Position numbers and translations under genes: made by a program
In this document: piece by piece, positions 3,156 through 5,810 of the stretch
Position numbering within the stretch: the stretch's first letter is position 1
Layout of the letters: every line of letters begins with the position of its first letter
From: an uncultured bacterium
GTDB lineage: Bacteria; CALINM01
Assembly: GCA_938045315.1 (NCBI GenBank)
Contig: CALINM010000002.1
Location: 1 to 7,238 of the forward strand
Reading direction: 5' to 3'
DNA length: 7,238 nt
The notes under the pieces: generated by a model
The model's input: the letters and a program-made list of their open reading frames with translations, nothing else
The model's database searches: none
Told to the model about the DNA's origin: nothing

Positions 3156-3246
3156 GATATGATATTTAATAATATTGGCAAAAAATTAACATATATGCAT
3201 CATGTTTTGTTAAATTGATCCTGTTGAAAGTTTAAGAACATAATTC

Positions 3247-3275
3247 TTGACGATTTTAAAAAAAGTAAATAAAAT
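3247..3275 (+). promoter_or_regulatory. Predicted sigma70 promoter of the tRNA-His/tRNA-Lys unit
   Basis: A -35 box TTGACG (3247-3252) and a -10 box TAAAAT (3270-3275) are separated by exactly 17 nt. The start point would be near 3282, about 7 nt before the mature 5' end of tRNA-His. Both boxes match five of six consensus bases, which is the strongest promoter match seen in the window. Confidence 0.7.
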
Positions 3276-3288
3276 ATTAAACTCTAAT

Positions 3289-3363
3289 GGTGAGCGTAGC
3301 TCAGTAGGTTAGAGCACAAGGTTGTGGCCCTTGTGGTCGTGGGTTCGAGTCCCATCGCTCACC
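3289..3363 (+). tRNA. tRNA-His (anticodon GTG)
   Basis: Complete cloverleaf. Acceptor stem GTGAGCG (3290-3296) pairs with CGCTCAC (3356-3362). An extra G at 3289 opposite the discriminator C at 3363 gives the G-1:C73 pair that identifies tRNA-His. D stem GCTC/GAGC; anticodon stem CAAGG/CCTTG around the loop TTGTGGC, anticodon GTG; T arm GTGGG-TTCGAGT-CCCAT. CCA is not encoded (ACCC then TTACA), so the CCA-adding enzyme must complete it. The GUG wobble G is a substrate for queuosine modification, the pathway of the neighbouring queC. Confidence 0.97.
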
Positions 3364-3376
3364 CTTACAAAAAAAT

Positions 3377-3450
3377 GGGCCATTAGCTCAGTTCGGTAGA
3401 GCAGCTGACTCTTAATCAGTTGGTCCAAGGTTCGAATCCTTGATGGCCCA
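3377..3450 (+). tRNA. tRNA-Lys (anticodon CTT)
   Basis: Complete cloverleaf. Acceptor GGGCCAT (3377-3383) pairs with ATGGCCC (3443-3449), with discriminator A3450. D stem GCTC/GAGC; anticodon stem GCTGA/TCAGT (closing G-T pair at the outer end) with loop CTCTTAA and anticodon CTT; T arm CAAGG-TTCGAAT-CCTTG. CCA is not encoded. It lies 13 nt after tRNA-His and probably shares its transcript. No hairpin-plus-T-run terminator is visible downstream. Confidence 0.97.
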
Positions 3451-3475
3451 TTCATTTTAAATCCCACCTAAATTT

Positions 3476-3503
3476 TTGCAATTAGTGAGATATGGAATAA
3501 AAT
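3476..3503 (+). promoter_or_regulatory. Possible relic promoter of the decayed lemA gene
   Basis: TTGCAA (3476-3481), a 16-nt spacer and TAAAAT (3498-3503) lie just upstream of the intact Shine-Dalgarno AGGAGG (3517-3522) of the lemA remnant. The boxes are close to consensus, but the region is so AT-rich that chance matches are common. If active, it would make a transcript with no translatable gene. Confidence 0.4.
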
Positions 3504-3530
3504 AAGAAAAATGAGCAGGAGGTAAAATCG

Positions 3531-3758
3531 ATGCTTTTTTAATGTTATTTTAACAATTTTTTGTTTTTATTTTGTATTTTCATATAAATTGAAAAAAATA
3601 TACAATTTGCAAGAAGTATTACAATGAGAAAGTGAGGGATTACAATATTCTATGTGAAGCCTTTCCAACTAACATAATTGCTTAAATGTTTGTGTTTAAA
3701 AAGAGAGTTTTTTGAGATTAACGATTTAGAAAGAGAAAATGTCAAAATCTCCTTTTAA
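3531..3758 (+). pseudogene. lemA: Decayed LemA-family gene
   Basis: LemA proteins are small membrane-anchored, coiled-coil proteins of about 185 residues, with a poorly understood role. The former start is clear: AGGAGG (3517-3522), 8 nt, then ATG at 3531. The first frame reads MLF, a stop (3540), then the hydrophobic stretch CYFNNFLFLFCIFI, a stop (3585), then IEKNIQFAR. After a one-base shift near 3615 it continues YYNEKVRDYN...FPTNIIA, a stop (3683), then MFVFKKR. After a second shift near 3707 it reads FFEINDLERENVKISF and ends at TAA 3756-3758. This follows the usual LemA C-terminus, in which an AR.YYN..V..YN block precedes FPsn.iA..F.F, FFE and a terminal SF. About 75 codons remain, so the central coiled-coil part between the anchor and IEKNI is deleted. 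The family call is from remembered consensus; the order and spacing of five blocks make chance unlikely. Not expected to give a working protein. Confidence 0.82.
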
Positions 3759-3761
3759 AAC

Positions 3762-4357
3762 ACGAAGAAATTTTTCATTTTAATTTTTTTAATCATAACT
3801 CATGATATCTATGCAGAAAGATTTGTTATCAATTATAATATGGATGTTAAGGTATAGGAAAATGGTAGAATATTGGTTAGTGAAGAAATTGATACTGATT
3901 TTAAAGCCTTAAGGCTTTATTAGAAAAATACCCTTTTATATGAAAACCATCTCAAATGAAGAGTATATAAATAAAACGCAAATTTATGATAGTAAAAGTT
4001 TTTTTCAGAAAAATTTTTTACACAATTTCTTTTTCAATATTTTTTAGGAACATTTTGAGTAGTTATGTTTAATTTTAGATGGGGTATAAATATTATTTTT
4101 TTCCTTACGCCATAGCACTTGGTATTGCTGATAAAATTGTAAGTAAATTTTCTAGTTTATTCAAAGAACCGCAAAAGTATATTCCTATCAGGGAAAAAAC
4201 TTGGGAAGTTATGGATATTTTAGTATCAAGAGTTGATTTTATGATAAGTGGTTTAAACAATTTTCTTTATTTTTTAGACAAGAATATTTCTACAAAAGCT
4301 ATATGTATTTGCAGCAAGGATGTAAATACAAGTTTAGATGGTAGATCGAGTTGGTGA
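3762..4357 (+). pseudogene. Decayed DUF2207-family membrane protein gene
   Basis: Begins 3 bp after the lemA relic stop, as in intact lemA-DUF2207 pairs. The frame from 3762 reads KKFFILIFLIITHDIYA, a signal peptide whose start codon is now ACG (3762-3764) instead of ATG. Then comes AERFVINYNMDVKV, a TAG stop (3855-3857), and ENGRILVSEEIDTDFK, which resembles the family N-terminus (ERI..Y...V.V...G...V.E.I). After a frameshift near 3906-3913 it reads RGFIRKIPFYMK, matching the RGIYRDIP site. Roughly 4010-4078 is degraded. A third segment from 4079 (open to 4357) gives FFPYAIALGIADKIVSKF, the conserved C-terminal YLPYAIALGV region, then a degraded tail ending SSW. DUF2207 proteins are usually about 550-620 residues; about 200 codons remain, so the middle, including the membrane segments, is lost. 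The 92-residue ORF at 4079-4357 is a fragment, not a gene. Function of the family is unknown. Confidence 0.75.
3902..3919. repeat. 18-bp perfect palindrome
   Basis: TAAAGCCTTAAGGCTTTA reads the same on both strands. It falls exactly at the frameshift in the DUF2207 relic. No T-run follows, so it does not look like a terminator. It may be a mutational product inside the pseudogene or a chance palindrome. Confidence 0.5.
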
Positions 4358-4480
4358 ACATAATCTTAATGTAAGCAAAATATTTATTTGAAAAAAATAT
4401 TTACAATCACATGTCATATAATGAGTTTAACTATTTAAAATTTCTTGTTAAAAAACATTACCTCATGTATCATATAACAT
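4358..4480 (+). promoter_or_regulatory. Upstream region of the hyp operon with two possible promoter boxes
   Basis: Non-coding stretch between the DUF2207 relic and hypC. TTGTTA (4445-4450), 17 nt, then TATCAT (4468-4473) forms a plausible sigma70 promoter whose start would fall at about 4480, directly at the hypC ATG (4481). A perfect TATAAT also occurs at 4417-4422 but has no -35 box at the right distance. No Shine-Dalgarno precedes hypC. No sigma54 -24/-12 (GG-N10-GC) element was found, although such elements drive hyp operons in some bacteria. Confidence 0.4.
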
Positions 4481-4720
4481 ATGTGTTTAGCTGTTCCTAT
4501 GAGGGTTATAAATATTGTAGAAGATTTTTGTACAGTAGAATTAAAGGGGGTTAAAAAAACCTGTTATATTGGTTTTCTCGATGAAAGACCCAAAGAAGGG
4601 GACTATTTATTGGTTCATGCTGGTATGGCGATAAAGGTTTTAGACTATAATTCAGCTCAAGAAATATTAGAGGAGCTTGCTTTTCTTATAGAAGGAGAAA
4701 TGAGTAGTGGAGATCAGTAG
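4481..4720 (+). CDS. hypC: [NiFe]-hydrogenase assembly chaperone HypC
   Basis: Small cytoplasmic chaperone (79 residues, normal length). It binds HypD to carry the Fe(CN)2CO unit and delivers it to the hydrogenase large-subunit precursor. The N-terminus MCLAVPMRV contains the essential Cys2, exposed after removal of Met1, which ligates the iron. The OB-fold-like body ends in GDYLLVHAGMAIKVLD followed by AQEILEEL, both typical of HypC/HupF. The ATG at 4481 is fixed by the invariant MCLA start, although there is no Shine-Dalgarno in front of it; initiation may be leaderless. The 3' end overlaps hypD by 14 bp, implying translational coupling. Confidence 0.97.
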   Translation: MCLAVPMRVINIVEDFCTVELKGVKKTCYIGFLDERPKEGDYLLVHAGMAIKVLDYNSAQEILEELAFLIEGEMSSGDQ

Positions 4721-5810
4721 CCCTCAGTTTTACAAAAATAAAGATGTTACAAAAGCTTTTGTAAATTATCTTAAAGAGAGATTGAAAAAATTTTCAAATC
4801 TAAAAATTATGGAATTTTGTGGTACCCACACACATAATATTTTTCAATACGGTTTCAGATATGCATTTAAACCCAATTTAAGTTTTATAGCTGGTCCAGG
4901 TTGTCCTGTTTGTGTAACTTCTGATTATGAATTGGCTGAAGTTTTTTATCTTCTTGAGAAAGAAAATGTTGGCATAATAACCTATGGTGATATGTTAAAG
5001 GTGCCTTATAAGGGCAAAAGTTTACTTGATTTTAGATCTGATGGATATAGCATAGAAATAGCATATAGTGCACTAGATGCCATAAACATAGCAGAAAAAA
5101 ATTCACAAAAGGAGTGGGTTTTTTTAGGTATTGGTTTTGAGACAACTATACCAGCAACAGCTGCACTGATAGAGATGATAATAAAAAGAAAAATAAAAAA
5201 TTTATCAGTCCTCTCCTTTCACAAAAATACAAGATCAATTATTTCTGCCCTTAGTAGTATTGGTGAACTTAAAGTTGATGGGATTTTTTTACCCGGGCAT
5301 GTCTCTGCAGTTGTAGGATGGCAATATTTTGAAGATATAAATAATTTTCGCATACCTTCTGTAGTTGTTGGGTTTGATCCCCTCGATATACTTTATGGCC
5401 TGTATGAACTAATTAATATGATTGAATCAGGCGAAGTTGGTATTAAGTGCTGTTATAAAAGAGCAGTTAATGAGAAGGGTAATACTAAAATGTTAATATC
5501 AATAGGACACTATTTTGATAATGTGGATTGTAATTGGCGTGGTTTAGGAGTTATAAAGAACGGTGGATTTGATATAAATACTGAATTTGAACAATTTAAT
5601 GCAAGGAAGAGATATGATTTTACAGATTTTAGATTTGATATTAACAAAAATGAATGTTCATGTGGTGAAGTTTTGTTAGGTAAAATTGAGCCAACAGATT
5701 GTCCATCTTATGAGATTATTTGCACTCCCGATACACCAATAGGCCCATGTATGGTCTCTCATGAAGGAACTTGTCTTGCATATTACAAGTGGAGTCGCAT
5801 TAATGGATAA
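4707..5810 (+). CDS. hypD: Hydrogenase formation protein HypD
   Basis: Iron-sulfur protein that, with HypC, holds the iron while CN and CO ligands are attached for the [NiFe] active site. 367 residues, normal for the family. Visible: EFCGTHTH with Cys38 in the active site; GPGCPVC with Cys66 and Cys69 (equivalents of E. coli C41, C69, C72); GIGFETT; and LPGHVSAVVG. The C-terminal cysteine cluster C317, C319, C332, C339, C348 and C356 includes the ligands of the [4Fe-4S] cluster (DCPSYEIICTPDTPIGPCMVSHEGTC). The start is GTG at 4707 inside the hypC end, with AAGGAG (4692-4697) 9 nt upstream; the ATG at 4700 belongs to the hypC frame. The end overlaps hypE by 8 bp. Confidence 0.97.
   Translation: MEISSPQFYKNKDVTKAFVNYLKERLKKFSNLKIMEFCGTHTHNIFQYGFRYAFKPNLSFIAGPGCPVCVTSDYELAEVFYLLEKENVGIITYGDMLKVPYKGKSLLDFRSDGYSIEIAYSALDAINIAEKNSQKEWVFLGIGFETTIPATAALIEMIIKRKIKNLSVLSFHKNTRSIISALSSIGELKVDGIFLPGHVSAVVGWQYFEDINNFRIPSVVVGFDPLDILYGLYELINMIESGEVGIKCCYKRAVNEKGNTKMLISIGHYFDNVDCNWRGLGVIKNGGFDINTEFEQFNARKRYDFTDFRFDINKNECSCGEVLLGKIEPTDCPSYEIICTPDTPIGPCMVSHEGTCLAYYKWSRING

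Follow-up and report, generated by a model that had tools for sequence, protein, structure and literature searches.

A DUF2207 pseudogene and an adjacent lemA relic upstream of hypC in an uncultured bacterium

Introduction

In the genome of an uncultured bacterium, the DNA between a tRNA-Lys gene and hypC holds pieces of protein-coding sequence, in three frames, that resemble the two ends of a DUF2207 protein, with a fragment of lemA just before them. Are these the remains of a lost operon, or could they be a live small gene, an intact operon garbled by errors in the assembly, or a chance resemblance? In many bacteria, lemA and a DUF2207 gene lie head to tail and almost without a gap. Paired DUF2207 and LemA genes have been described (PMC12631010).

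The window that we analysed is the whole of a 7,238-bp contig (C2) from a draft genome of 1.86 Mb in 244 contigs (92% complete). Upstream of the relics lie tRNA-His, tRNA-Lys, and two genes that we take, from their protein sequences, to be ileS and queC; downstream lie what we recognised in the same way as hypC, hypD, and hypE. A search for Rfam RNAs in 3200-4600 found the two tRNAs and nothing else, and no terminator-like site was found in 3440-4500.

Both ends of a DUF2207 gene are recognisable

The N-terminal part of the DUF2207 relic lies at 3762-3933 on the forward strand, with the recognisable DUF2207 N terminus at 3771-3933. The lemA frame ends with a TAA at 3756-3758, and 3 bp later there is an ACG (3762-3764), which is where the earlier note on this DNA had the relic begin. 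After the ACG, TKKFFILIFLIITHDIYAERFVINYNMDVKV, a TAG stop codon (3855-3857), and ENGRILVSEEIDTDFK follow in a single frame, including a signal peptide and a stretch that runs from AERFVINYN to ENGRILVSEE. The position of the ACG and the signal peptide after it suggest that an ATG start codon was lost here. There is a frameshift at about 3908-3913, and a second frame encodes GFIRKIP (3913-3933). The C-terminal part is in a third frame: FFPYAIALG (4097-4123) lies within a forward-strand open reading frame (ORF) of 92 amino acids at 4079-4357 (FFPYAIALGIADKIVSKFSSLFKEPQKY...RSSW, then a stop), and the DUF2207 C terminus extends from 4097 to the stop at 4357. All of the pieces that the earlier note had quoted are present in the DNA where the note placed them, in that order and in three frames.

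A perfect 18-bp palindrome (TAAAGCCTTAAGGCTTTA) lies at 3902-3919, exactly on the frameshift. It is possibly the product of a template-switch mutation, or else chance; we give it little weight because another perfect 18-bp palindrome (TTACAAAAGCTTTTGTAA) lies at 4747-4764, inside the 5' end of hypD, and because palindromes of 18 bp also turned up in 2 of 60 shuffled versions of the window.

When its frames are joined across the stop codon and the frameshift, the N-terminal part matches Pfam family PF09972 (DUF2207) with 24.8 bits, just above the gathering cut-off of 24.4 bits (E = 2.9e-5; positions 4-62 of 172 in the profile). A direct search of the genome with PF09972 gave no match because the stops and changes of frame break the profile. 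By tblastn, about half of 36 DUF2207 proteins match the C-terminal part at 4097-4213 (best E = 2e-4), nearly always from the C-terminal region of the query and at a consistent place. The 92-residue ORF also matches the very end of PF20990 (DUF2207_C; positions 230-247 of 247), below the cut-off (E = 0.13).

Because the stitching of frames involves choice, we also ran a frameshift-tolerant profile alignment on the raw DNA, using a profile built on 32 intact homologues, and put 200 dinucleotide shuffles through the same settings. The whole relic region scored 77.0 bits, versus 24.5 ± 5.2 for the shuffles (maximum 43.3), so that none of the 200 reached its score. A less clean profile (36 proteins, with 4 wrong-frame ORFs) gave 65.4 bits, versus at most 33.6 for shuffles and at most 39.0 for 38 real decoy tiles. 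The two ends were significant separately: 36.6 bits for the N-terminal part (shuffles 15.7 ± 2.9) and 45.0 bits for the C-terminal part (shuffles 17.5 ± 3.2). DUF2207 similarity at both ends, which the earlier note had proposed along with this kind of check, is therefore borne out.

Could this similarity have arisen by chance in AT-rich intergenic DNA? Translations that are low in complexity and biased towards hydrophobic residues do inflate weak matches, and the middle of the relic aligns at noise level. The shuffle test already refutes this explanation, however; the two ends are independently significant and colinear, and a lemA relic lies upstream in the canonical operon order. We consider a chance resemblance to be vanishingly improbable.

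The middle of the gene is missing

Between the two ends lies a deletion-scarred middle (3934-4096, forward strand), in which about 441 residues would be expected from the spacing of intact homologues. Frameshift-tolerant alignment of 3940-4090 gave no DUF2207 remnants above noise (16.6 bits versus 15.1 ± 2.7 for shuffles; 60 of 200 shuffles did as well or better). In 32 intact homologues, 408-487 residues (median 441) separate the IP motif from the LPYA motif, versus 166 bp in the relic, and from this difference we estimate that about 1.16 kb, or roughly two thirds of a DUF2207 gene of about 1.8 kb, has been lost. The earlier note's estimate of a loss of roughly two thirds between preserved ends agrees with this spacing; a single large deletion is not demonstrable, as several smaller ones would look alike. 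The junction lies somewhere in 3934-4096, and since the middle has no family signal, the number and end points of the deletions are not readable from it. Direct repeats in the region are AT-rich only.

Full-length DUF2207 proteins have about 580-660 amino acids, with central transmembrane segments and a Gly-rich tail; the relic lacks both the middle and the Gly-rich tail. The locus is a pseudogene of the DUF2207 family and not a functional member, and it cannot give rise to a working DUF2207 protein.

The N-terminal block scores lower than all 31 of the intact DUF2207 homologues compared, as decay would predict. A point against decay is that the conserved block of the C-terminal ORF, at 34.8 bits, is inside the intact range (6 of 32 intact homologues score lower), so that decay at this end is mild.

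A lemA relic lies directly upstream

The lemA relic (3472-3758, forward strand) is secure from 3600 to the TAA at 3756-3758, probable at 3552-3614, and possible at 3472-3507, as judged from tests of each segment. Its Pfam match covers positions 100-136 of the LemA profile (E = 1.6e-7) with 2 stops within, and frameshift-tolerant alignment of 3600-3770 gave 67.3 bits, versus 14.2 ± 2.5 for shuffles. Most of the 5' part of the gene is missing between tRNA-Lys and the preserved portion. The relic's lemA block scores lower than 16 of 16 intact homologues, which would again be expected from decay.

An alternative placement, in which the N terminus of LemA was kept (an AGGAGG, an ATG around 3530, and a hydrophobic stretch), did not reach significance (12 of 200 shuffles). 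A LemA segment at 3552-3614, just before RRYYN and colinear with it, is a better fit. The Shine-Dalgarno-like AGGAGG and the ATG near 3518-3532 do not match any recognisable LemA N terminus. The 5' cut of the relic is near the 3' end of tRNA-Lys.

Of the DUF2207 loci that we inspected, about half have an intact lemA directly upstream, with a spacing of about zero, and the relic pair has lemA immediately upstream and on the same strand, as in other genomes. Furthermore, the LemA tail in the relic (YYNEKVRDYNILCEAFPTNIIA...KKREFFEINDLERENVKISF) is 62-64% identical to the DUF2207-linked LemA proteins at two other loci, L059 and L077 (a Desulfurellales MAG). It is clearly unlike the genome's own intact second LemA, which is encoded on another contig (C185) beside a gene for what we take, from its sequence, to be a TPM-domain-like protein. 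This C185-type lemA and its neighbour are conserved in two related genomes, one of the same genus (G001) and one of the same family (G002, where the copy is truncated by a contig end), and it is a LemA system separate from the relic. Because the relic's LemA tail resembles L059 and L077 and not the C185 protein, we read the two relics as one unit: the locus between tRNA-Lys and hypC is almost certainly a decayed lemA-DUF2207 operon of the DUF2207-linked kind.

The intact pairs at L059 and L077 (PF04011 with PF09972/PF20990) share with the relics their gene order, near-zero spacing, GIIRKIP-like N-terminal motif, LPYAIALG-like C-terminal motif, and terminal W. Unlike in those pairs, both genes are broken here: lemA lacks most of its 5' part, and DUF2207 about two thirds of its length.

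If the disruptions were assembly or sequencing errors, the operon would be intact in the organism, and a draft in 244 contigs does invite this suspicion. Yet several independent lesions are spread over the two genes, the sequence is short by about 1.16 kb, and the N-terminal block is more decayed than in any intact homologue. The flanking ileS, queC, hypC, hypD, and hypE frames are all open on the same contig, which also argues against sequencing error. We regard errors of this kind as extremely improbable.

The C-terminal ORF is probably not a gene

The ORF at 4079-4357 might instead be a live small gene for a stand-alone protein derived from the C terminus of DUF2207. It has 92 open codons in AT-rich DNA, and its conserved block is as well preserved as in some intact proteins. 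On the other hand, the sequence has no ribosome-binding site near the ATG at 4079, and the ORF is in register with the disrupted N-terminal half upstream. It has lost the Gly-rich tail, and its last codon before the stop encodes Trp; in most intact DUF2207 homologues a Gly-rich tract is followed by a terminal W. A search of 386 panel genomes gave no stand-alone homologue: the matches are weak and all fall within larger frames, and those to DUF2207 proteins lie at the C terminus, inside frames of about 600-660 amino acids. The ORF is absent from the same-genus genome, and the same-family genome gives noise-level matches only. A conserved stand-alone gene at 4079-4357, which the earlier note had named as grounds for giving up its reading, was thus not found, and a live small gene is highly unlikely. 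Because the conserved block is well preserved, we allow a small chance of residual use, and there is only a very slim chance that the 92-residue remnant still yields a protein with some leftover or newly acquired function next to the hydrogenase maturation genes. Annotations should not list ORF 4079-4357 as a gene.

How the operon may have decayed

The best-supported account is that a dispensable lemA-DUF2207 operon was inactivated and then underwent deletion-biased decay. The homology of both ends, the lesions, the missing middle, and the operon order are directly visible: lemA lacks most of its 5' part, and DUF2207 is without its start codon, is interrupted by a stop codon in frame and by a frameshift, and is about 1.16 kb short in its middle. 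We infer that the operon was inactivated first and that neutral deletions, one or a few, then removed the sequence. The genome presumably tolerates the loss via its separate intact LemA, which has a different partner.

Ordinary bacterial pseudogenes, which are inactivated and then shortened by deletion, have the same stops, frameshifts, lost starts, and internal deletions, and nothing is distinctive here. The locus is a real but ordinary pseudogene that reflects ordinary reductive decay. Outside annotation it is of little consequence: it documents that a lineage with another LemA system has lost the lemA-DUF2207 one.

Related loci

The closest matches to the N-terminal part of the relic are DUF2207 proteins from Bacteroidota (L079 and L089; 40% identity over 63 amino acids for L079), whose genes are open whereas the relic is broken. 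Too few residues survive for the relic to be placed phylogenetically. The DUF2207 family is present in 77 of the 386 panel genomes. We found no intact DUF2207 gene in the three genomes of this phylum that we compared (the host, G001, and G002); there is a slight chance of an intact copy elsewhere in the host genome, given that its assembly is 92% complete. With three genomes compared, the operon may have been ancestral and lost elsewhere, or it may have been acquired by this lineage before it decayed.

In the same-family genome, the tRNA pair has different neighbours. In the same-genus genome, tRNA-His and tRNA-Lys are followed by hypC about 165 bp on. No DUF2207 relic was detected in this tRNA-Lys/hypC intergenic region (156 of 200 shuffles scored as well or better). 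The same gap (L013, 972-1150) has a weak LemA score of 18.3 bits, which 12 of 200 shuffles equalled or bettered, and this could possibly be a trace of the same operon.
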